A DNA stretch of 59,539 bases from an uncultured Pirellulaceae bacterium. GTDB lineage: Bacteria; Planctomycetota; Planctomycetia; Pirellulales; Pirellulaceae. The translations under genes and the position numbers were made by a program. Positions 3,191 to 18,021 of this stretch are shown one piece after another. The notes beneath the pieces were generated by a model, which saw only the letters and a list, made by a program, of their open reading frames with translations, searched no databases and had not been told where the DNA came from. Position 1 is the first letter of the stretch; each line of letters begins with the position of its first letter. The DNA lies in contig CALJOA010000045.1 of NCBI GenBank assembly GCA_937981585.1, positions 1-59,539 of the forward strand. Reading direction: 5' to 3'.

Positions 3191-5104
3191 ATGACCTCGC
3201 GGCAAGAGACCTTCACTTGGTCTCTCATCTTGATCTGCGCGACAGCGTTTGTCTTTTTGACTTACGTTGACAAAACCTATGCGCAGTCGAGCTCTCGCCG
3301 CGGCTTGGATCAAGGTCCCCCAACGAACTCAGTTGGGGTCCAATCGACTCAATCGACACCAGAACTGTTGGCGCTACCAACGCAAACTCCAGCTCCGCTG
3401 ACCGCGACCGCGCCAATCGCAAAACCAACCCCACGTTACAACGATTCAACTTCCGCGCGGGTTGCCGAAGCCAATCCGATCGAAAGCCCAATGACTCGTC
3501 AGATTCGAAGTCAACTAAGCAAGAAACGGACTTTCCAAACCGGCGTGCGTTCTGCGCCCAATCGAAGTCGCGCCCTTTACAACATTCGCAACGAGCGGCG
3601 GCAACAAGACACCCAGACCGTCGAAGAGTTGCTTGAAGAAATGGACCGTGCACCGACTGGGCAACTGTCACCCTCGACGACCGATCCCGGACGTCCTTCT
3701 GATCCCAGGCTTCCCGCCGACAATGAAATGCGAAACGGTGGAGGATCACAACCGATCGAGCCTGCCTTTGACGGCCAGCGTTCGAACGAGACCTTCGGCT
3801 CAACCAACAATCAGCTGAGCCCTCAAACGTTTATGCCGGTCCCACGACGGACGGAAAATAAATCGGGCTCAGTCGTGCGGAGTTCAGAACAGAATTCAAA
3901 CTCACAGAATTCGAACTCATCAACGCACGGTTTGCCCACCAGCGGCTACAACGAGTTGGGGTTTTTCGAAATGCAGGCGATCAGGAACCACCCGACACTC
4001 AATGCTTCCTTGGCGCGGATACTGACGGCGCGACACGAAGCGCTTCAGGCCGGCCTTCACCCCAACCCGAGCCTGGGCCTGTTTATTGACGAAGCCGGAA
4101 ATGAAAACGATCCGGGACTCTGGGGCGCCTACCTGCAACGAAATCATATTCGCGGCAACAAACTAGCGCTTGGTCGAGAGATTAAAAACCGGGAAGCCAC
4201 GGTACTGGAGGTTGAGTTCGAAACCCAGGTTATTCGGATCAGGACCGATGTTCGTACGGCGTTCTACCGGCTTTTGATCGCCAAAGAAAAACTAAACTTG
4301 ATGTATGAGCTTTCCCAAACGCAGCAGTACGCAGTCGAGAAATCAAAACAGCTTTTCGACGCCGGCGAGACTCCCAGAACCGATGTCTTACAGACCGAGC
4401 TGCAACTTCAGCGAACCGAAGTCCTGATAGCGCAGTTGGAAAGTACTTTCGAGAACGCTTGGCGCGAACTGACATCAGTCGTGGGAGACCCGGAACTTGA
4501 ACCTCGACTTGTAACCGGCGACCTCAACCCGATCGTCGAGCAGGTGAGTTTCGAAGAGTGCCGCGACCACATCCTCAGTTACAGCCCCGAGCTGCAATCG
4601 GCCCAAGCCGAAATGGATCGGATCCGCTGCACAATCGACCGAGAAATTGCCGAAACGATTCCTGACTACCAAACACAACTCAGGGTCGGTCGGGACTCAA
4701 CAACGAATCACTTCTTTACCGGATTGCAGGTTCAAATACCGCTTCAGATTTGCGATCAAAATCAAGGGAACATTGCTGCAGCCAAATCAAGATTGATGGC
4801 GGCTCAACATGATCTCGAACGAATCAAACTTGATTTGTCAAAACGACTGGCGATGGAGTATCGCCAATACGAATCGGCGCTTGCCAAAACGAACATGTAC
4901 AGGAACAAGCTTCTTCCAAAATCGAAACAGACACTGGATTTGTTGCAGCAGGGCTATCCTTCAGAAGTCAGTTTCCTGCAACTTTCAACCGCACAGCAGG
5001 CTGTGATCGACATCACGCTTGAGTACCTCGACACGCTAAATCTCGTTTGGAAAAGTCGTTTAAAGATCGAAGGGTTGCTACTGGACAACAGTCTTGCCAA
5101 GTAG
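3191..5104 (+). CDS. TolC family outer-membrane efflux protein
   Basis: The product (637 residues) is the predicted outer-membrane channel of a tripartite RND efflux system. A signal peptide covers about residues 1-32, with a hydrophobic core and a YAQ-type cleavage region. Residues 33 to about 250 are Ser/Asn/Gln/Pro-rich and look disordered. The OEP domain starts near residue 252 and fills the rest, with long alpha-helical hairpin segments full of Gln, Glu and Arg. The OEP part alone is close to a typical TolC/CusC length, so the N-terminal linker is an addition of about 215 residues. The adaptor gene follows after 70 bp and the pump gene after it, which supports one efflux operon. The first ATG fits the signal peptide. 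Confidence 0.88.
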   Translation: MTSRQETFTWSLILICATAFVFLTYVDKTYAQSSSRRGLDQGPPTNSVGVQSTQSTPELLALPTQTPAPLTATAPIAKPTPRYNDSTSARVAEANPIESPMTRQIRSQLSKKRTFQTGVRSAPNRSRALYNIRNERRQQDTQTVEELLEEMDRAPTGQLSPSTTDPGRPSDPRLPADNEMRNGGGSQPIEPAFDGQRSNETFGSTNNQLSPQTFMPVPRRTENKSGSVVRSSEQNSNSQNSNSSTHGLPTSGYNELGFFEMQAIRNHPTLNASLARILTARHEALQAGLHPNPSLGLFIDEAGNENDPGLWGAYLQRNHIRGNKLALGREIKNREATVLEVEFETQVIRIRTDVRTAFYRLLIAKEKLNLMYELSQTQQYAVEKSKQLFDAGETPRTDVLQTELQLQRTEVLIAQLESTFENAWRELTSVVGDPELEPRLVTGDLNPIVEQVSFEECRDHILSYSPELQSAQAEMDRIRCTIDREIAETIPDYQTQLRVGRDSTTNHFFTGLQVQIPLQICDQNQGNIAAAKSRLMAAQHDLERIKLDLSKRLAMEYRQYESALAKTNMYRNKLLPKSKQTLDLLQQGYPSEVSFLQLSTAQQAVIDITLEYLDTLNLVWKSRLKIEGLLLDNSLAK

Positions 5105-5127
5105 CGAAGCAGTTTACGTGATAATGC

Positions 5128-5133
5128 TATAAT
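5128..5133 (+). promoter_or_regulatory. Possible -10 box (TATAAT) upstream of the adaptor gene
   Basis: A perfect TATAAT lies 41 bp before the adaptor ATG, in the 70-bp gap after the TolC-like gene. No convincing -35 box is seen at the proper distance, so an internal promoter is only a possibility. Confidence 0.25.
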
Positions 5134-5174
5134 CAGCCGACTACTTTGGTCGCCATCGAGTAACCAAGACAACA

Positions 5175-6662
5175 ATGACACGCACAGCATCAAACAACTC
5201 GAGAAACATCTGGCCGACGCTGTTGTTGTGCGCCGTGCTTTTGGCCGTTGGAGGAATCGCTGGGTTTTTGCTTCGCCCTGTCATCTTGCCCGAGGTCGCC
5301 CAAACGGATGAAGGACAAGACCCGGAGTCTGGCGGAGCAGGGCACGGCTCGAGTGCGATCGTGGTGATCAATGAGAAGACACTCGACAACATGAACTTGA
5401 AGTACGGCAAGTTCGAGGTGCGTGACTATTTTCAAACGATCCGTATTCCGGCTCAGGTCGTTGAACGGATTCCGCAATCTCGTCGGAGCGTTTCGGCTCC
5501 GATCGCCGGCCGCGTCACGAAAGTCTTTGTTGCCAAAGGCCAAGCCGTCCGGCCTGGTGAAAAACTGTTTGACGTTCGCATCACCGACCAATCGATTGCC
5601 GACTCGCAGGTTGGCCTGCTCGAAGTGTTCGCCAACTTGGAGATCAGCCGAGCAAAAAAACAACGGCTGGAGAATCTTGGAACAGGAGTTGTGGCTGGCA
5701 AGCAGCTGATGGAGGCCGATTTCGAAATTAAGAAGCTAACCGATCGGCGGGCTGCGTTGATTCAGGAGCTTCGGGCGCGAGGGATGGGCGAAGAACAGAT
5801 CAAGACGTTCATCAAAACGAAACAACTCGCCAAGGACATCACGATCTTTGCACCGGCATTGGAAAAGGCGCCGTCGTCTTCGCCACCCGAATCGGCCCCA
5901 GCGCTGACGATCACTCCGGCTTCCGCAACGATCGGGCAGCCAGCCGCATCAACGATGCTGCAGGCCGACGATCAGTACTTTACTGTCGAGTCAATCTCGG
6001 CGCTGCAAGGATCGGCTCTAAAACTTGGTGATCCACTGTGTAGCTTGACCCATCACAGCGAGTTGCTGATCAAAGGACTCGCGTTCGAAAGCGACGTCGA
6101 CAAGATCGCCAACGCAAACCAAAACGGCTGGAAGTTCACGGCTCAGTTTGGCGAAGGCCCCGACGCGCTGGTCCGTGAGGGATTGCCGCTTTACAAAGTC
6201 GAAAACCATGTCGATACCCAATCGCAAACGTTTCCCGTGTTCGTAGAAATTGAAAACGAAATCATCAATCAGACGTCAGACGCCCAGAACCGTAAGTACG
6301 TCAATTGGCGATTCAAGCCGGGCCAAAGGGCTCACCTCGAGGTTCCGATCGAAATGTGGAAGTCACAAGTCGTCGTGCCGATGGCGGCCGTTGTTCGTGA
6401 AGGCCCTGAGACGTTTGTGTTTATGAAAATCAGTCACACGCACGAGTCGGCCGATGGCACGCTTGATCACGAATTCCAAAAAGTACCGGTGCAGGTGCTG
6501 CACACCGATAAACGGTTTGCGGTACTCAAAAAGGATGTTCGGCTCGACGTTTACGAAAAGTACGCGTTGGACCAAGCGTATCAGCTGAATCTGGCGTTGA
6601 AACTGGCCGCTGGTGGAGGCGCCGATCCGCATGCGGGCCACGATCATCCGCATCCGCACTGA
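5175..6662 (+). CDS. RND efflux periplasmic adaptor (CusB/CzcB-like membrane fusion protein)
   Basis: This 495-residue adaptor would link the RND pump to the outer-membrane channel. One N-terminal membrane anchor spans about residues 14-36. The first half of the lipoyl-like barrel-sandwich is seen in SAPIAGRVTKVFV and KGQAVRPGEKLF (about 110-135). An alpha-helical hairpin follows (about 140-210), then a Pro/Ala/Ser-rich insertion (about 230-265), the beta-barrel and the membrane-proximal domain. The C-terminus ends in a His-rich tail (DPHAGHDHPHPH), a feature of metal-handling adaptors that suggests Cu, Ag or Zn as substrate. It lies 70 bp after the TolC-like gene and 100 bp before the pump gene. 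Confidence 0.88.
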   Translation: MTRTASNNSRNIWPTLLLCAVLLAVGGIAGFLLRPVILPEVAQTDEGQDPESGGAGHGSSAIVVINEKTLDNMNLKYGKFEVRDYFQTIRIPAQVVERIPQSRRSVSAPIAGRVTKVFVAKGQAVRPGEKLFDVRITDQSIADSQVGLLEVFANLEISRAKKQRLENLGTGVVAGKQLMEADFEIKKLTDRRAALIQELRARGMGEEQIKTFIKTKQLAKDITIFAPALEKAPSSSPPESAPALTITPASATIGQPAASTMLQADDQYFTVESISALQGSALKLGDPLCSLTHHSELLIKGLAFESDVDKIANANQNGWKFTAQFGEGPDALVREGLPLYKVENHVDTQSQTFPVFVEIENEIINQTSDAQNRKYVNWRFKPGQRAHLEVPIEMWKSQVVVPMAAVVREGPETFVFMKISHTHESADGTLDHEFQKVPVQVLHTDKRFAVLKKDVRLDVYEKYALDQAYQLNLALKLAAGGGADPHAGHDHPHPH

Positions 6663-6762
6663 TCCGGCAAGAAGTAAGCTTGGAAGAAATGATTCCCGAT
6701 AGCCGACAAATTTTCAGGCCGTGATCCAATCCTGACGCCTTCGTCGAAATGAAATCCTGACA

Positions 6763-9700
6763 ATGCTTAACGCCATCATCAAACTTGCGCTACATCGTCG
6801 CGCGATCGTTTTGTGTTTGGCGCTCGCCGCGATCGTCATCGGTGGTTTGGCGATCAAAGAGCTTCCTGTTGATGTGTTGCCCGATCTGACTCGTCCGCGT
6901 GTGACGATCATCACCGAGTGCGAAGGAATGGCGCCCGAAGAAGTCGAGCGCGAAGTCACCATTCCGTTGGAAACAGCGGTCAACGGCGCTGCCGGCGTTA
7001 TTGCCGTCCGCAGTAAATCCGACGTCGGTCTCTCGGTCATCAACGTTGAGTTCGATTGGGGAACCGATATTTATCGTTCGCGGCAGATCGTGAACGAGCG
7101 CATGGCACTTGCCAGACAGCAACTCCCCGACAGGGTCCAGCCGCGACTGGGTCCACTGTCGTCGTTGTTGGGACAGATTATGCTGATCGGAATGTGGAGT
7201 GACACGGGTTCAACTGAACCGATGGAAATGCGCACGCTGGCCGACTGGGTTGTCAAAAAGCGGCTTCAACAAATTGCTGGGATCTCGGAAGTCATCACGA
7301 TGGGCGGCGGTCGCAAGCAGTACCACGTGCTGGTCGATATTCATGAGCTTCACAAGTTCGACATCTCGCTCCAGCAAATCGAAGAAGCCCTCACCAAGAC
7401 CAACATGAACGTCAACGGCGGTTACGTGGATCGAAATTCACGGGAGTTCTTGGTTCGCGGGATCGGGCGTATCAATGATATCGAAGAACTCCGCCGGATC
7501 GTGATTCGCGACGATAGCGACCGTGCTGTTCTGCTTGAAAATGTCGCTACGATCCAGCCAACACCGCAGGTCCAGCGCGGCGACTCCAGCATCAACGGCC
7601 AAATGGGTGTCGTGCTGACGATTCAGAAACAACCTTCGGCCGACACGAGAGCGCTTTCCGAAGAAATCGAAAAGGCGTTGGTTGAACTCCGGCCCGGTCT
7701 GCCCGAAGACATCAATCTGGAGATCACCTATCAACAACGCGACTTCATTGACCACAGTATCGGCAATGTCGTCGATGCGCTGAGGGATGGCTCGATCCTG
7801 GTTGTCATCGTGCTGTTCCTGTTTCTGTTCAACGCCCGAACAACGTTGATTACGTTGACGGCGATCCCCGTCTCAATCCTTGTTACCGCGTTGGTGTTTC
7901 GGTATTTCAATCTCTCAATCAACGTGATGACACTGGGCGGGATAGCGATCGCGCTGGGTGAGTTGGTGGACGACGCGATTGTTGATGTTGAGAATATTTA
8001 CAGACGCCTCCGTCAGAATTCGCGACTGGAACGTCCGAGACCAATCCTCAAAGTGATTTTCGAAGCCAGCGTCGAGGTACGCAACGCGATCATCATCTCC
8101 ACGATACTGGTGATCGTTGTATTCTCTCCGTTGTTTGCGCTGAGTGGAATTTCGGGACGGATGTTTATCCCGCTGGGCGTGGCTTACATCGTATCCATTA
8201 TCGCTTCGACCGTCGTTTCGTTGACGCTGACTCCGGTGCTTTCGTATTTTTTGCTGCGCAACACCAAATCCAAATCAGAACGGACTGACAGCTTTGTCGT
8301 GCGCGGATTGAAAGCCTGTTTCTCACCGCTGGTCAGGCTGAGCATGTCAAAAGTCGGATTCTCGGTACTCTTACTTTCGACGCTGCTCGCAGTATCGGTT
8401 TGCTCGCTGGTCGCGTACCGAATGGGTCAGGAGTGGATCCCCAAGTTCGATGAAGGCTCGATGCAGATGAACATGTATGCCGAACCTGGAACGTCGCTGC
8501 AGACGTCGCTTGAAATCAGCGCCAACGCCAACAAGGAGCTGCTCAAGCTGGTCCACAGCGAAGACAATCCCAACGGCTTTATCAACTATTTCACCGGGCG
8601 AACCGGGCGGGCCGAGAACGACGAACATGTGATGGGCGTCAACACGACCGAATACACCATCACGATGGCTGACGGGCATGGCAAATCTCGAGATGAGATC
8701 ATCGAGATCCTTGAGGACACCGCAGCTGTACTGCCGAACGTTGGAAGTGAAACCGATCAGCCGATCGCGCACATGATCAGTCACTTGATCTCTGGTTCAA
8801 CGGCGCAAATCGCGGTCAAGCTGTTTGGCGACGATCTCGGCACCTTGCGACGAAAGGGAAACGAGATCCGGGACGCGATCGCGGAAGTCCCTGGGATCAA
8901 GCCGCCCAAGATGGAACAACAGCAGGTCATCCCGCAGCTGAGAATCGAACCCGACTACGAACAATTAGCGGCTTACAAACTGAGTCTGGCAAAAGTTTTC
9001 GGCATGGTCGAGATGGCGATGCAAGGGAAAGTCGTTTCACAGATGGTGGAACAGGAAAGAACATTTGAAATTGTGATTCGATTCCCAAAGCACTACCGGG
9101 AGAACTTTGAAGAGCTTGGACGGATTCCAATCGAGTTGCCCGACGGCGGTTCGGTTCCGCTTTCGACCGTCGCCAAAGTGTATCAATACGGTGGACCTAA
9201 CACGATTAACCGGGAAGAATCTCGGCGGCGGGTGATCATCCGGGTCTATACCGACGACAAAGATCTCGCCACAGCGGTCACAGATATCAAGAAAGTGGTT
9301 GAGGAAAAAGTCGAACTGCCCGAAGGCTACATCGTGCAGTATGGCGGTCAGTTCGAAGCCCAATCCCAAGCCCTGCGGCAGATGCTGATTCTGTCGGTGG
9401 TAGCGCTACTGGTCGTGTTTGTGATCCTTTACTCGAGCTACTCTTCTTTCAACATCGTGTTTCAGATTCTGTTCGCTTTGCCGATCGCGTTTGTGGGTGG
9501 TGTTCTGGCGTTGAAGCTGACGGACCAAGTCTTCACGACCTCGGCGATGGTTGGTTTTATATCGCTAGGTGGAATCGCGGCCCGGAATGGCCTACTGTTG
9601 GTTTCGACTTATTTGGACAACTCGAATTCCAACGGCGAAATCACCAAGCGTGAGATTCTCGATGGAAGCCTCGAAAGAATGACTCCGGTGTTGATGACCG

Positions 9701-9897
9701 CTCTAACTACGGGAATCGGTTTGCTACCCTTAATTTTTTCCGGCAACCTCCCTGGACGCGAAATACTCTATCCGGTTGCGACGGTAATTGTTGGTGGCTT
9801 GATAACGTCGACGATTTGTGAATTTCTAATTCGCCCCGGCCTGTTCTACTTCTTGGGCCCAACAAGAACGCTGGGCGAAGAAGATTCTCTGATGTGA
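6763..9897 (+). CDS. Heavy-metal efflux RND pump, CusA/CzcA family
   Basis: This 1044-residue inner-membrane proton-driven pump has the usual length and twelve-helix layout of the heavy-metal efflux RND family. TM1 is at about 14-32 and two large periplasmic loops follow TM1 and TM7. In TM4 the relay region has Ala397, Asp403 and Glu410. The pattern A-D-E matches CusA (A399, D405, E412), whereas CzcA has D-D-E, so monovalent copper or silver is the more likely substrate. Extra acids E400, D404 and D408 sit in the same helix. A Met-rich run (M567, M569, M571) lies near the periplasmic cleft region where CusA uses methionines, although the exact CusA Met positions do not align perfectly. Third gene of the efflux operon. 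Confidence 0.92.
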   Translation: MLNAIIKLALHRRAIVLCLALAAIVIGGLAIKELPVDVLPDLTRPRVTIITECEGMAPEEVEREVTIPLETAVNGAAGVIAVRSKSDVGLSVINVEFDWGTDIYRSRQIVNERMALARQQLPDRVQPRLGPLSSLLGQIMLIGMWSDTGSTEPMEMRTLADWVVKKRLQQIAGISEVITMGGGRKQYHVLVDIHELHKFDISLQQIEEALTKTNMNVNGGYVDRNSREFLVRGIGRINDIEELRRIVIRDDSDRAVLLENVATIQPTPQVQRGDSSINGQMGVVLTIQKQPSADTRALSEEIEKALVELRPGLPEDINLEITYQQRDFIDHSIGNVVDALRDGSILVVIVLFLFLFNARTTLITLTAIPVSILVTALVFRYFNLSINVMTLGGIAIALGELVDDAIVDVENIYRRLRQNSRLERPRPILKVIFEASVEVRNAIIISTILVIVVFSPLFALSGISGRMFIPLGVAYIVSIIASTVVSLTLTPVLSYFLLRNTKSKSERTDSFVVRGLKACFSPLVRLSMSKVGFSVLLLSTLLAVSVCSLVAYRMGQEWIPKFDEGSMQMNMYAEPGTSLQTSLEISANANKELLKLVHSEDNPNGFINYFTGRTGRAENDEHVMGVNTTEYTITMADGHGKSRDEIIEILEDTAAVLPNVGSETDQPIAHMISHLISGSTAQIAVKLFGDDLGTLRRKGNEIRDAIAEVPGIKPPKMEQQQVIPQLRIEPDYEQLAAYKLSLAKVFGMVEMAMQGKVVSQMVEQERTFEIVIRFPKHYRENFEELGRIPIELPDGGSVPLSTVAKVYQYGGPNTINREESRRRVIIRVYTDDKDLATAVTDIKKVVEEKVELPEGYIVQYGGQFEAQSQALRQMLILSVVALLVVFVILYSSYSSFNIVFQILFALPIAFVGGVLALKLTDQVFTTSAMVGFISLGGIAARNGLLLVSTYLDNSNSNGEITKREILDGSLERMTPVLMTALTTGIGLLPLIFSGNLPGREILYPVATVIVGGLITSTICEFLIRPGLFYFLGPTRTLGEEDSLM

Positions 9898-11300: not shown

Positions 11301-12137
11301 ATGCAACTCCTTCTCAAGAAAACTAATCAGATGACCCGCCGTATTTTTAACCTGTGTTTGACCACAACTTTGCTGGCTTCAATTTCTTTGTTCTCAGGAA
11401 CTTCGTTTGCCGATTTGACCACTGATCAATCGGACGCCAACGGTGACTTGATCGTCGCTGAGGAATATTACGGGCCGGGAGGCATTGTTTCTTCCGCCGA
11501 TGATGCCAGTTTCGCCAACACTTCCTATCTGGTGATTGATCACGGTGATGGAAGTACTCCAATCGCTTATGGTTATCGTTGGAACGATGCAGCAACGACA
11601 GGTGAGACGATGTTCTCCGACATCGTGTTTGGAACTCTGGGCAACAGCAATGACGAAGAACTATTTGCAAAAGTTCAAACGTTCTCGTTTGGAAAGCTGA
11701 TCGTCGGAATCGGGTACAACAGCGACGATGACACCAGCTGGGGTGATCTGAGTGACGGGACTGTGATGACAGACTTTGCCACCACCAACGGAATTTTTGA
11801 AACGGCTCAAACGGCTGCGTTGGTCTCCTCTGTTGATGTTTCGGATTCCTATCAAGAGGGAGACAGCGACTTTACTCGTGGATGGGTCTATTTTGATGCC
11901 GACTCCAATCCTTATACCGGCCCGCCTTCGGGTTGGGGGGATCCTGCGGGAGTTGGTTTTTCCGATCGAATTCTGACCGATGGCGCTTGGGACGGATGGG
12001 TTTTTGATTCCGATTTTACTGTCTTTGGAGACCAAGCACCCGGAACCCCTGAAACGGTTGCGGTTCCAGAACCAGGGAGTCTGTTATTTCTGTGGGCTGG
12101 AGGAATTACGATCTGGTTGCGACGGCCCAGACGCTAG
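11301..12137 (+). CDS. PEP-CTERM sorting-domain exported protein
   Basis: This 278-residue secreted protein has an N-terminal signal peptide (to about residue 38, ending SFA-D; an inner ATG at 11331 is also possible) and a C-terminal sorting tag. The tag is VPEPGS (about 255-260), a hydrophobic helix and the basic end WLRRPRR. Such tags direct proteins to exosortase-like processing at the envelope. The mature part is rich in Asp, Gly, Ser and Thr, with a GYRWN segment near residue 93, and looks like a beta-rich extracellular domain. I do not recognise the domain. It probably shares the transcript controlled by the cobalamin riboswitch, so it may be produced under B12 limitation; a role in B12 capture is inference only. 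Confidence 0.85.
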   Translation: MQLLLKKTNQMTRRIFNLCLTTTLLASISLFSGTSFADLTTDQSDANGDLIVAEEYYGPGGIVSSADDASFANTSYLVIDHGDGSTPIAYGYRWNDAATTGETMFSDIVFGTLGNSNDEELFAKVQTFSFGKLIVGIGYNSDDDTSWGDLSDGTVMTDFATTNGIFETAQTAALVSSVDVSDSYQEGDSDFTRGWVYFDADSNPYTGPPSGWGDPAGVGFSDRILTDGAWDGWVFDSDFTVFGDQAPGTPETVAVPEPGSLLFLWAGGITIWLRRPRR

Positions 12138-12421: not shown

Positions 12422-14431
12422 ATGGGAAATTTTTTTTCCAAGCTGTTTGATTTCAACACCAGCGACTTCCCACGGCGCTGGGATTGCGGCAACTGGGAGA
12501 GCTTTCATGGTTGGCTGCATATTATCTCAGATCTTGCTGTTTTCGGGGCGTATACCGCCATTCCGATCGTTATTCTGTTTTTCGCCTGGCGAAGAAAACG
12601 CAACAACAAACCAGTACAATTCCCCGGCCTGTTCTGGCTTTTTTGCGGATTCATTTTTGCGTGTGGAACCGTACACCTAATCGAAGCCGCGATCTTCTTT
12701 GCTCCTGTTTACCGGATCTCTGCCGTTGTAAAATTTGCGACTGCCGTGGTTTCCTGGGCGACAGTCTTGTCGTTGATCAAGTTCTCTCCTAAAGCTCTCG
12801 CAATGCCGACGTTGAGCTCTCTCAACAAGCAGCTTGAACAAGAGACTGCGTCGCTCCGTTCTACCCAGAAGCAGCTGACGGCCGCGCTCGAGGAGCTACA
12901 GAACTCCTATCGACTATTTGATGCGGTCTTGACCAATGTCGGCGCAGGAGTGGTCGCCGTGGATACAAAAGGCGAGCCTTTACTGGTCAACCCGGCCGCG
13001 AATCGAATTTCTGGAATGTCAATGGAAGCCGAATTCGGTGACTGGCTCAACCAATACGATGTATTTCTAGAAGACGGAAAAACACCCTGTGAACCAGAAA
13101 ACCTTCCGTTGGCCCGCGCGATCGCAGGTGAGACAGTGTCAGGGGAGTATCTCAATCGCAATAAGAAAACCAACAAAGACACATGGGTTCGGGTCAAGGC
13201 AACACGGGTTCTGGACGGGAATCACGAGTCCATGGGCGCAGTAATTGTTTTCGACGAGATTACAGAGTCAAGGGAAAGGCGAGCTCGGCTGGAAGAATCT
13301 CAAATCGAAACGGAGACCGAGTTGATCGAAACCAATCGACAACTTAGCCAGGTATTAAACTCCATCACTGATGTCATTTGGACCGGTGAAAAAACATCAA
13401 ATGGATTGGACTTTAAGTACATGTCGCCGGCGATTGAGCGTCTCACTGGTCTTCCAGCCGAGGATCTACTTGGCGATGCCAAGACTTATATCTCCTGTAT
13501 CAATGAAGAAGATTTGGAGAGAATGAAAAAAACCATCAGATCATTTGTCTCCGGAACCCAAGACACGATTCAAGCCGAGTATCGAATCAACCATTCAGAT
13601 GGAAGCATTCGCTGGATTCGCAATCGAGTTGTTCGTGAGATTCAAAATGGCACGCACTCTTTCCATGGCGTCATTTCTGACATCGATCAAGAAAAAAAGA
13701 CTGCCAGGGCCCTGTTTCAAGCAGAAAGATTAGCCTCTCTGGGCACGCTGTCGGCGGGACTGGCACATGAGATCAACAACCCACTGGGCGCGATGATGCT
13801 CACGACAGAAACTGCGCTCAGGCAGCTCGACTCCGAAACCGGCAGTAAAAAAGAAATTTCAAAGTCACTGCTCAACGTGATGGATCAAATCGAGCGATGC
13901 TCAAGAATTGTCGACGGAGTTTTGATGTTCGCTAAGAACGAATCCTCGGAAAAAGCTCCTCACTTGATGCTAGACGTCGCTCAACGCGCTAGAGATATGA
14001 TGCTGTTCAAAGCCAGACCCAAGAATATTTCAATTTCTCTGAGGGACGAAAGCTCGGATGCAACCGTAGTCGTCAATCCGATCGAACTTGAGCAAGTCAT
14101 TGTGAACCTGATCTCCAATGCGATCGACGCCTCCCCCGAATCATCGGATGTCCAAGTGAGAATCCGGCAATTTGGCGACTCGGTAGAAGTTGCGGTTCAC
14201 GATGATGGAAGCGGGGTCGATGAGTCGATCAGAGAGGCAGCCTTCGACCCATTTTTCACTTCGAAGCGAGAATCTGGCGGGACTGGGTTGGGGCTAAGCA
14301 TGTGCCACACAATCGTTACTGACCATGGCGGGACAATCGAGATTCGTGATTCACAGTTCAAACAGGGGGCCGAAGTTCGAATCCTGATTCCGATTGCACC
14401 GATTGAGCCGAGCCGTCAAACAACCGATTGA
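12422..14431 (+). CDS. Ethylene-receptor-like (ETR1-type) sensor histidine kinase with two PAS domains
   Basis: A 669-residue membrane kinase. Three N-terminal helices (about 33-120) match the ethylene-binding domain of plant ETR1 and cyanobacterial homologues. Asp37, Tyr44, Ile47, Pro48, Ile78, Cys81 and His85 correspond in identity and spacing to ETR1 D25, Y32, I35, P36, I62, C65 and H69. Cys81 and His85 would bind Cu(I). A coiled segment (about 122-158), a first PAS (about 160-275) and a second PAS/PAC (about 300-425) follow. Then come the DHp helix with phospho-acceptor His449 in AHEINNPLG and a HATPase with NLISNAID, DDGSGVD and GTGLGLSM. There is no receiver domain. The response regulator 194 bp downstream is the likely partner. 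A GGAG motif 8 bp upstream supports this ATG. Confidence 0.93.
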   Translation: MGNFFSKLFDFNTSDFPRRWDCGNWESFHGWLHIISDLAVFGAYTAIPIVILFFAWRRKRNNKPVQFPGLFWLFCGFIFACGTVHLIEAAIFFAPVYRISAVVKFATAVVSWATVLSLIKFSPKALAMPTLSSLNKQLEQETASLRSTQKQLTAALEELQNSYRLFDAVLTNVGAGVVAVDTKGEPLLVNPAANRISGMSMEAEFGDWLNQYDVFLEDGKTPCEPENLPLARAIAGETVSGEYLNRNKKTNKDTWVRVKATRVLDGNHESMGAVIVFDEITESRERRARLEESQIETETELIETNRQLSQVLNSITDVIWTGEKTSNGLDFKYMSPAIERLTGLPAEDLLGDAKTYISCINEEDLERMKKTIRSFVSGTQDTIQAEYRINHSDGSIRWIRNRVVREIQNGTHSFHGVISDIDQEKKTARALFQAERLASLGTLSAGLAHEINNPLGAMMLTTETALRQLDSETGSKKEISKSLLNVMDQIERCSRIVDGVLMFAKNESSEKAPHLMLDVAQRARDMMLFKARPKNISISLRDESSDATVVVNPIELEQVIVNLISNAIDASPESSDVQVRIRQFGDSVEVAVHDDGSGVDESIREAAFDPFFTSKRESGGTGLGLSMCHTIVTDHGGTIEIRDSQFKQGAEVRILIPIAPIEPSRQTTD

Positions 14432-14625: not shown

Positions 14626-15279
14626 ATGAGTATGAACCTCGAAGCACCCAAACCAGCTGGACAACAAGATCTAGAACTTGAAGCATCTAAACGAAATTTA
14701 ATCGTTTACGTTGTTGAAGACGACGAAGCGATGCGGACTTCGATTAGTGGCTTGTTGACGGGTGAGTCGATCAAGCATCGCCTGTACGAGTCCCCACAAA
14801 CGTTTCTTGAAGAGTTCTCAAAAGAGCCCGGCGTGCTGCTGCTCGACCTGCGGCTTCCTGGAATCAATGGAATTGAACTGTACCAACTGTTGCGTGAGAA
14901 AGGCGTCAACTTGCCGTTCATCATGATTTCGGGCAACGCCTCAATCCAAAACGCCGTCGATTCAATGAGACTTGGTGCGGTTGATTTTCTTGAAAAACCA
15001 TTTCGCTCGCGGGCACTGCTTGAATCAATCGATAAAGCCTTCACCACGATCACCAAGAACAAGGACATCAATCGACGCTTGAGTCTGTTATCTGACCGTG
15101 AAACAGAATTTCTTGGCTACATCAAAGAAGGTTTGAGCGTTAAATCCATCTCTCACCAACTAAACATCAGTCCGAAAACCGGGCACGCGCATCGTCGCAG
15201 TATTCACCAAAAGATGGGTGTCGATTCGGATGCCTATCTGGTCAAGATGTTGCAGTCGCTGAATACAAATCACGAGTAA
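14626..15279 (+). CDS. FixJ-type response regulator (REC plus LuxR-like HTH)
   Basis: A 217-residue DNA-binding response regulator. The receiver domain (about 25-135) has the acidic pair in VEDDEA, phospho-acceptor Asp74 in LLLDLRLPG and Lys124 in FLEKPF. A short linker leads to a LuxR-type helix-turn-helix (about 150-210) with LSDRETEFL and LNISPKTGHAHRR. The recognition helix has GHAHRR where most FixJ relatives have VEVHR-like residues, so its operator may differ. It lies downstream of the ETR1-like kinase and is the probable phosphotransfer partner. A strong terminator follows 31 bp after the stop. Confidence 0.93.
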   Translation: MSMNLEAPKPAGQQDLELEASKRNLIVYVVEDDEAMRTSISGLLTGESIKHRLYESPQTFLEEFSKEPGVLLLDLRLPGINGIELYQLLREKGVNLPFIMISGNASIQNAVDSMRLGAVDFLEKPFRSRALLESIDKAFTTITKNKDINRRLSLLSDRETEFLGYIKEGLSVKSISHQLNISPKTGHAHRRSIHQKMGVDSDAYLVKMLQSLNTNHE

Positions 15280-15310
15280 GTTGGCAACATTTTGTTGCAT
15301 AAACTCATGG

Positions 15311-15346
15311 GCCCGAAGTGCTTGCGCTTCGGGCTCTTTTTTTTTT
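15311..15346 (+). terminator. Rho-independent terminator after the response regulator
   Basis: GCCCGAAG and CTTCGGGC form a perfect GC-rich stem around TGCTTGCG, followed by CT and a run of ten T. It ends the kinase/regulator unit. Confidence 0.92.
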
Positions 15347-15672
15347 GCAACGATTGCGAATCGAACCAACATTCCTGCTATGAACATTTCGCGCACATCG
15401 AGCCGATCGATGAAGCGAAAACGAAACGTTGAGTTGCTCGCTTTCCACGCTGAGGCAAAAAAACAACACCTTGAATGAGACAAAGGCTGGCCTCGCTCAA
15501 CAAAAACCCAGTGTTTTAGGCCGTTTTGGAAACTCGGTTGCATCAATTTAGTTTGGAACTTCTTTTGCTCTTTAGCTCGGCATCTACCAACAGTGAGGTT
15601 TACGTTCGTTGGCAAACTTCTTGTCAAGAAACCTCAACACAATCACAGATTCACACGACCAGGAAAATTCAA

Positions 15673-18021
15673 ATGAGCCTTAGAGAAAACTTGCCAAGCC
15701 TTGCCAATTTCATTTCCAAACTAGACACCCTCAAGCGTGATGCAAAGACTACGAAGCAACAACGAGAAAGCATCGAATTGCTGGAGCAACGCATCATGTT
15801 CTCAGCCACTCAGGCTGGCGCGTTTTTTGATGGCTGTCTCGACCATGACAATATGGATTATCTCGGTTTCGATAACAACCTCGAAGAGCTGTTTAGCGGC
15901 TCTCCAGAGCACAGTGATGAGATCGCCAACTTAGTCAACGAATTATTCAGTGGAAATGAAGCTCCAGTCGACACAGTCGCTGACGATATCATCAAGGGCA
16001 CTTCTGGCGACGATGACATCGACGGAACAGCGGCCGACGAAACCATCACCGGTCGTCAAGGTAACGACCATCTTCACGGACAAGGCGGCGATGACGTTGT
16101 TCGAGGTGGAACTGGAAATGACGTTGTCGAAGGAAACTCCGGCAATGACATCGTCAAGGGTGGCGCTGGAAACGATGCAGTTTACGGCGGCTCCGGAAAT
16201 GACATGATCTTCGGCGGACGAGGCAATGACATCCTCAACGGAGGCGGAGGCGATGAAATGCTTTCAGGTGGAGCAGGACACGACATCATTGACGGCGGAA
16301 CAGGCTACGACACCGTTCATGTCGACGGAAACTCTACCGACTACAAAGTAGAAGCCTCCGATAAAGGCGGGTTTAAAATTACCGGTATTGACGGCAGCGT
16401 TGCAGAGGTGACTAACATCGAAGAGATCGCCTTTTTGTGGGACAAAGTAAACCTCAAAGCCGATGATCTAGCCAACATTGCTAATCCTCCTGTAGTTGAG
16501 GCTCCAATCGTTGAGGCTCCTGTAGTGGAAGCTCCTGTAGTCGAAGCTCCAATGATTGAGACTCCTGTGGTCGAAGTTCCAGTAGTTGAAGCTCCAGTCG
16601 ACACAGTCGCTGACGATATCATCAAGGGCACTTCTGGCGACGATGACATCGACGGAACAGCAGCCGACGAAACCATCACCGGTCGTCAAGGTAACGACCA
16701 TCTTCACGGACAAGGCGGCGATGACGTTGTTCGAGGTGGAACTGGAAATGACGTTGTCGAAGGAAACTCTGGCAATGACATCGTCAAGGGTGGCGCTGGA
16801 AACGATGCAGTTTACGGCGGCCCCGGAAATGACATGATCTTCGGCGGACGAGGCAATGACATCCTCAACGGAGGCGGAGGCGATGAAATGCTTTCAGGTG
16901 GAGCAGGACACGACATCATTGACGGCGGAACAGGCTACGACACCGTTCATGTTGACGGAAACTCTACCGACTACAAAGTAGAAGCCTCCGATAAAGGCGG
17001 GTTTAAAATTACCGGCATTGACGGCAGCGTTGCAGAGGTGACTAACATCGAAGAGATCGCCTTCTTGTGGGACAAAGTAAACCTCAAAGCCGATGATCTA
17101 GCCAACATTGCTAACGGGAAAGCTCCTGTAGTAGAAGCCCCGATCGTTGAAGCTCCAGTAGTTGAAGCTCCAGTAGTTGAAGCTCCAGTAGTTGAAGCTC
17201 CAGTAGTTGAGGCACCAGTAGTTGAAGCCCCGATCGTTGAAGCTCCTGTGGTTGAGGCTCCTGTAGTGGAAGCCCCGATCGTTGAAGCTCCAGTAGTTGA
17301 AACTCCGGTAGTTGAAACTCCGGTAGTTGAAGCTCCGGCAGCTCAGCCCACATACGTTGTGGAAGTCATCAACGGCACCAACACTGAGTTCTTCGCCACA
17401 CCGGTTTGGTTTGGACTGCACGACGGAAGCTTCGACCTCTTTGATGCTGGAAGTTCGGCCAGCAACGCTCTGGAAGTCATTGCAGAGTTGGGCGATGTAA
17501 ATCCGCTGACTGCGGCCTTCGAAGCGGCACCGGGAACTCCTGGTGACATCAACGGAGTAGTCAGGGGTGGAGCGACAGGCATTCCTCCAATCTCACCAGG
17601 TGAAACTGGAACAGGATCCTTTGAAGTCATCAATCCAGCTAACTACCAGTACTTTAGCTTTGCTTCAATGGTCATTCCATCGAACGACACTTTCATTGGA
17701 AATGACAACGCACTGGAGTACCGAATCTTTGATGACAACGGAAATTTCCTTGGAAACAACGGCGTCTTTGAAATTCAGGTTACCAACATCTACGATGCCG
17801 GAACTGAAATCAACGACGGTTCGGCCAATGGTGGAGGAGCCTTCATTGCGGGTGCTGACGAGTTCGGTGGTGCCGCTGAAAACGGCGTTGTAACACGTGC
17901 AACAGATTTGTCTGAATTCCAAGGTGTCAATACACCCAACGGTTTGACGATCAACGATACGACACTTGGTGCGGGTGAATCGTTCGCCACCATTCGGATC
18001 ATCGAAGTACCGGCTGTGTAA
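15673..18021 (+). CDS. RTX calcium-repeat and spondin-domain surface protein with LEPR-like N-terminal motif
   Basis: A 782-residue exported protein. Near the N-terminus LEQRIMFSA (37-45) is a variant of the planctomycete LEPR-XLL motif found on large secreted proteins. Two nearly identical modules (about 97-271 and 307-481) each begin with IIKGTSGDDDIDGT, contain tandem GGxGNDxx calcium-binding nonapeptides and end in a short beta domain. They are joined and followed by VVEAP pentapeptide linkers, the second being about 75 residues long. The C-terminal part (about 557-782) starts VVEVINGTN and resembles a bacterial Spondin_N domain (TPVWFGLHDGSFDLFD). An upstream in-frame start at 15526 would add 49 unrelated residues; AGGAAAA before 15673 and the conserved motif position favour the inner ATG. 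Calcium-stabilised adhesin or surface-layer role is inferred. Confidence 0.88.
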   Translation: MSLRENLPSLANFISKLDTLKRDAKTTKQQRESIELLEQRIMFSATQAGAFFDGCLDHDNMDYLGFDNNLEELFSGSPEHSDEIANLVNELFSGNEAPVDTVADDIIKGTSGDDDIDGTAADETITGRQGNDHLHGQGGDDVVRGGTGNDVVEGNSGNDIVKGGAGNDAVYGGSGNDMIFGGRGNDILNGGGGDEMLSGGAGHDIIDGGTGYDTVHVDGNSTDYKVEASDKGGFKITGIDGSVAEVTNIEEIAFLWDKVNLKADDLANIANPPVVEAPIVEAPVVEAPVVEAPMIETPVVEVPVVEAPVDTVADDIIKGTSGDDDIDGTAADETITGRQGNDHLHGQGGDDVVRGGTGNDVVEGNSGNDIVKGGAGNDAVYGGPGNDMIFGGRGNDILNGGGGDEMLSGGAGHDIIDGGTGYDTVHVDGNSTDYKVEASDKGGFKITGIDGSVAEVTNIEEIAFLWDKVNLKADDLANIANGKAPVVEAPIVEAPVVEAPVVEAPVVEAPVVEAPVVEAPIVEAPVVEAPVVEAPIVEAPVVETPVVETPVVEAPAAQPTYVVEVINGTNTEFFATPVWFGLHDGSFDLFDAGSSASNALEVIAELGDVNPLTAAFEAAPGTPGDINGVVRGGATGIPPISPGETGTGSFEVINPANYQYFSFASMVIPSNDTFIGNDNALEYRIFDDNGNFLGNNGVFEIQVTNIYDAGTEINDGSANGGGAFIAGADEFGGAAENGVVTRATDLSEFQGVNTPNGLTINDTTLGAGESFATIRIIEVPAV
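15961..16484 (+). repeat. 524-bp direct repeat within the RTX gene, copy 1
   Basis: This segment is repeated at 16591-17114 with an offset of 630 bp (210 codons). By eye only about six bases differ, nearly all silent; one changes Ser to Pro in a GGxGND block. That is about 99 percent identity, which points to a recent in-frame duplication or gene conversion. Confidence 0.92.
16591..17114 (+). repeat. 524-bp direct repeat within the RTX gene, copy 2
   Basis: Second copy of the module encoding calcium-binding repeats. It begins, like copy 1, at GCTCCAGTCGACACAGTCGC, so the duplication boundary falls inside the VEAP linker, which suggests the linker repeats served as the recombination site. Confidence 0.92.
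17125..17340 (+). repeat. 15-bp tandem repeat encoding VVEAP/IVEAP/VVETP
   Basis: About fourteen copies of a 15-bp unit (GTAGTTGAAGCTCCA and variants) encode a Pro/Glu/Val stalk between the second calcium module and the spondin-like domain. A shorter set (16488-16590) lies between the two modules. Copy number is likely to vary between strains. Confidence 0.88.

Follow-up and report, generated by a model that had tools for sequence, protein, structure and literature searches.

A putative ethylene-receptor histidine kinase beside a FixJ-like response regulator in an uncultured member of the Pirellulaceae

Putative ethylene receptors with a range of output domains are on record from many bacteria, above all from cyanobacteria and proteobacteria (PMC7700396, PMC6682694, PMC11819568); an ethylene-binding domain is therefore not new in bacteria, as an earlier note on this DNA had acknowledged. 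In the accessible literature, receptors of established function come only from cyanobacteria and one Azospirillum. For AzoEtr1 of Azospirillum brasilense, ethylene binding was measured and was lost on disruption of the gene, and the first 130 amino acids bound ethylene when expressed in yeast (PMC11819568). SynEtr1 of Synechocystis transfers phosphate to a regulator that activates transcription (PMC11819568, PMC6682694). In the open-access literature we found no report of planctomycete ethylene receptors, although one may exist elsewhere.

The locus considered here lies in a window, meaning the whole stretch of DNA that was analyzed, of 59,539 nucleotides (contig CALJOA010000045.1). Its host is indeed a planctomycete, belonging to the same family (Pirellulaceae) as Blastopirellula marina DSM 3645 and Rhodopirellula sp. 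JC639. The features under discussion, with positions numbered in the window, are as follows.

12422..14431, + strand: predicted sensor histidine kinase, 669 aa, with ETR1_N, two PAS, HisKA and HATPase_c domains (ORF with ACGGAG 5' of the ATG; Pfam matches above cut-off)
12506..12805, + strand: putative ethylene-binding (ETR1_N) domain, aa 29-128, helices at about aa 27-60, 68-90 and 97-127 (PF25487, AlphaFold2)
12530..12565, + strand: helix 1 site D37, Y44, I47, P48, matching ETR1 D25, Y32, I35, P36 (alignment; conservation of 98.7% or more per column across 152 ORFs)
12566..12652, + strand: gap from P48 to I78, with loop RRKRNNKPVQF (alignment A1; count of the P-to-I spacing)
12653..12676, + strand: helix 2 site I78, C81, H85, matching ETR1 I62, C65, H69, the C and H being Cu(I) ligands in ETR1 (alignment)
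12731..12733, + strand: K104 in helix 3, matching ETR1 K91 and AzoEtr1 K98 (alignment)
12932..13276, + strand: PAS domain 1, aa 171-285 (PAS_9 / PAS_4, Pfam)
13415..13684, + strand: PAS domain 2, aa 332-421 (PAS_3 / PAS, Pfam)
13739..14395, + strand: HisKA (H449) and HATPase_c core, FixL/ZraS/AtoS-like, motifs intact (Pfam, NCBIfam and PDB matches)
14626..15279, + strand: FixJ-like response regulator, 217 aa, with a receiver (D74, K124) and a GerE/LuxR DNA-binding domain; probable partner of the kinase (Pfam, 83 and 55 bits)
About 15309..15346, + strand: strong predicted intrinsic terminator at the end of the kinase-regulator unit (12-bp stem, 8 G-C pairs, T10)

The N-terminal domain of the kinase

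Focusing on the N-terminus of the kinase, we found that it matches the curated ETR1_N profile (PF25487) at 98.1 bits, well above the cut-off of 27, with positions 2-97 of the 97 in the model covered. The E value of 3.7e-28 excludes a chance match, and the profile search thus agrees with the ethylene-binding domain that had been recognized from the letters alone. The host genome holds no second ETR1_N copy. AlphaFold2, run on alignment A1, predicted three N-terminal transmembrane helices (mean pLDDT 88.3), and no solved structure resembling the domain was retrieved either by sequence profile or by fold. The loop joining helices 1 and 2 is basic, which suggests an N-out topology with the kinase inside.

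The domain is 37% identical to that of AzoEtr1 over 120 aa (E=1e-21) and 35% identical to that of Arabidopsis ETR1 over 101 aa. The AzoEtr1 locus compared here (L032:5977-7551, on a plasmid of A. brasilense Sp7) encodes 525 aa in a PAS-histidine kinase layout and is overlapped downstream by a receiver gene, which fits the published description (PMC11819568). On the strength of the profile, the AzoEtr1 alignment and the predicted three-helix fold, we assign the N-terminus to the ethylene-binding-domain family; judged by sequence, it is a true member of the ETR1_N family of plant and bacterial ethylene receptors.

Other genes surround the kinase. The one directly upstream (11301-12137) encodes a protein with a PEP-CTERM-like tail at its end (VPEPGSLLFLWAGGITIWLRRPRR) and no Pfam or NCBIfam match. 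Further upstream, at 3191-9897, is a three-gene RND efflux operon of the CusA/CzcA type. The protein encoded at 15526-18021 has RTX-type calcium-binding repeats, arranged in two long blocks of near-identical sequence, and a linker made of VEAPVVEAP repeats.

Ligand-site residues and loop length

The earlier note had proposed that Asp37, Tyr44, Ile47, Pro48, Ile78, Cys81 and His85 match, in identity and in spacing, the seven ETR1 residues needed for copper and ethylene binding. All seven aligned with their ETR1 counterparts, at the positions claimed. Each of the seven columns is kept in 148-152 of 152 ETR1_N ORFs (at least 97%), a set in which the window gene stands three times and which, having been gathered through similarity to planctomycete members, is a biased sample. 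Such conservation marks the seven residues as a family signature, not a coincidence. The lysine of helix 3 is also present (K104), and its equivalents in ETR1 (K91) and AzoEtr1 (K98) have been implicated in receptor output (PMC11819568).

The spacing, by contrast, agreed only in part. Within helix 1 (D-7-Y-3-I-1-P) and helix 2 (I-3-C-4-H) it is that of ETR1, whereas between the helices P48 and I78 are separated by 30 residues, compared with 26 in ETR1 (P36-I62). A separation of 26 is common in the family and not known to be required: among the ETR1_N ORFs examined, it occurred in 134, with 27 in 14 and 25 in one. A value of 30 was seen in three rows only, all of them the window gene itself; its gap between helices 1 and 2 thus exceeds that of ETR1 by four residues and that of every relative found by three to five. 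As read from the alignment, this spacing is loop-length variation. One clearly degenerate copy occurs elsewhere in the family: about 8 kb from an intact copy, Zavarzinella formosa (L093, minus strand) carries a second ETR1_N domain in which the Tyr and Cys of the site are missing (D C V P L I H).

The probable FixJ-like partner and competing explanations

Pfam recovered both PAS domains, the HisKA/HATPase core and a neighboring FixJ-like regulator composed of receiver and GerE domains, bearing out the two PAS domains and the FixJ-type neighbor of the earlier note. The kinase core is nearest to FixL, ZraS and AtoS, and its best PDB matches are FixL chimeras. FixJ was the best NCBIfam match of the regulator, at 154 bits and thus under the 255-bit equivalog cut-off, which makes the protein FixJ-like, not FixJ. 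With a FixL-like core next to a FixJ-like neighbor, the two form a pair of matching class, and regulators of the FixJ and NtrC types are common partners of FixL/ZraS/AtoS kinases. The genes are separated by 194 bp, so their co-transcription is uncertain; no terminator is predicted between them.

Among 81 ETR1_N members, 30 contain a receiver within the protein, 41 have one within 2 kb, and 63 have either their own or one no more than 2 kb away, as does the window kinase; in the domain-layout survey, a receiver domain was carried by 30 of 86 ETR1_N kinases. Only two other members (L054 and L037) have a GerE-type regulator nearby, and a conserved FixJ-type partner was found neither around 80 relatives nor in Pirellulaceae.

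The best explanation for this arrangement is that the kinase probably serves as a membrane sensor of ethylene/Cu(I) feeding the FixJ-type regulator at 14626-15279. Cu(I) would be held by C81 and H85 within the three transmembrane helices, with D37 and K104 in positioning roles, and ethylene (or a similar small alkene) would bind the copper in the membrane and alter autophosphorylation at H449. The signal may be relayed by the two cytoplasmic PAS domains, or these may add a second cue; phosphate would then pass to D74 of the adjacent regulator, whose GerE domain would change transcription of target genes. We infer copper and ethylene binding, the sign of the response, phosphotransfer and targets, with ethylene binding by the kinase argued by analogy to AzoEtr1. 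Ethylene sensing is favored by the 98-bit ETR1_N match, the seven residues and K91 equivalent, the likeness to AzoEtr1, the three-helix model and the FixL/FixJ-class pair; counting against it are the longer gap between helices 1 and 2, the lack of a detected copper P-type ATPase and the 194-bp distance from kinase to regulator.

The ETR1_N domain might instead have a structural role, as a membrane anchor or as a dimer module, or it might bind another small molecule, leaving the PAS domains as the real sensors. PAS domains are frequent in the ETR1_N family, light is sensed through a second domain in SynEtr1 (PMC6682694), and the window gene alone has the longer helix 1-2 loop, all of which would suit this reading. 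A mere anchor, however, would be expected to lose site residues, as the degenerate copy of L093 did, whereas all ligand-site residues persist in the window kinase and in nearly every relative, across several phyla. We therefore consider this explanation unlikely.

Alternatively, Cu(I) (or silver) itself could be sensed at the Cys/His site in the control of metal efflux, for instance through the CusA-type RND operon 2.5 kb upstream, which is on the same strand as the kinase and combines a CusA/CzcA-family permease (TIGR00914, 760 bits; cut-off 701) with adaptor and outer-membrane genes. Two unrelated genes separate that operon from the kinase, however, and only 3 of 80 other members have a CusA-like gene within 10 kb, two of these genes being only remotely similar (about 23% identity). 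A copper P-type ATPase motif is near none of the 80, and the residues required for ethylene binding that are not metal ligands (Y, I, P, I) are conserved as well. A copper-efflux link, tested through the gene neighborhoods of the members, is thus unsupported, and metal sensing as such seems quite improbable. The 80%-complete host genome gave no match to copper P-type ATPase (TIGR01511) or E1-E2 ATPase (PF00122), although the latter is present in 14 of 14 control genomes; given the incompleteness of the assembly, this is weak evidence. One heavy-metal-associated domain was found in the host, in a permease-like ORF.

That the N-terminus belongs to some other multi-helix membrane sensor family, its residue matches being coincidental, is refuted by the profile search (ETR1_N at E=3.7e-28, with no other membrane family reported by Pfam or NCBIfam); no point in its favor was found, and we give it practically no chance.

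Distribution and comparison with known receptors

The ETR1_N domain was found in 42 of 392 sampled Planctomycetota genomes and in 60 of 241 Pirellulaceae genomes, the host being counted in both. Blastopirellula marina, a culturable relative, has two copies. With the domain this widespread in the phylum, its use in a planctomycete is weak grounds for the special interest that the earlier note had attached to it. Outside Planctomycetota, named relatives were seen in Verrucomicrobiota, Myxococcota and Bacteroidota, among other groups. Loci gathered with alignment A2, narrower than A1, are biased to close relatives. Within the host genus, a match turned up in a single further genome, with 50% identity across the domain, and at least 20 have none, a patchiness that points to gain by transfer or to frequent loss. 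The nearest rows in the domain tree, in which few forks are resolved, are an Omnitrophota MAG (L034) and a Planctomyces sp. MAG (L042), with SH-aLRT values of 85 and 91. A phage origin of the locus is unsupported, there being no phage match, as is a plasmid origin, plasmid relatives being less than 60% identical.

Six loci (L074, L037, L072, L076, L092 and L097) encode ETR1_N proteins of about 190-240 aa that have no kinase domain. In a Phycisphaeraceae MAG (L074:9926-13856), the kinase-less protein is followed by a CHASE-domain histidine kinase (CHASE E=2.5e-40) and then a receiver; a PAS kinase follows in L037 and a hybrid kinase in L092. Kinase-less ETR1_N proteins may be separate subunits, with assembly frameshifts as the alternative.

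By sequence comparison, such receptors are common in bacteria and the window kinase is a further, putative member, mildly unusual in its loop and output partner. It is doubtful that the longer loop and FixJ-type output define a distinct receptor branch converting a volatile alkene (or Cu(I) status) into transcription in free-living planctomycetes; if true, this would be gas signaling unrelated to plants. That the domain is so frequent in Planctomycetota and Verrucomicrobiota suggests that ethylene may be sensed by many bacteria with no evident plant partner. With its kinase present in one copy and a DNA-binding regulator next to it, the window locus would offer a convenient system for reading out a response.

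Among the known receptors, AzoEtr1 shares with the window kinase the N-terminal domain with all seven residues and the helix 3 lysine, a PAS domain, the HisKA/HATPase core and a receiver gene directly downstream. It differs in having one PAS domain where the window kinase has two, a helix 1-2 loop four residues shorter, and a stand-alone receiver partner without a DNA-binding domain. Arabidopsis ETR1 has its seven binding residues and K91 all matched in the window kinase, and carries GAF in place of PAS. Plant ethylene receptors act mainly through Ser/Thr kinase, unlike the FixJ-type regulator output proposed here (PMC11819568). SynEtr1 (slr1212), compared by description only, likewise joins an ethylene-binding domain to a further sensor region and a histidine kinase (PMC11819568, PMC6682694), but that sensor is a cyanobacteriochrome light sensor where the window kinase has plain PAS. 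Finally, ETR1_N kinases of other Planctomycetota, Verrucomicrobiota and Myxococcota (L034-L113) have the same domain and residues, coupled to outputs that vary.
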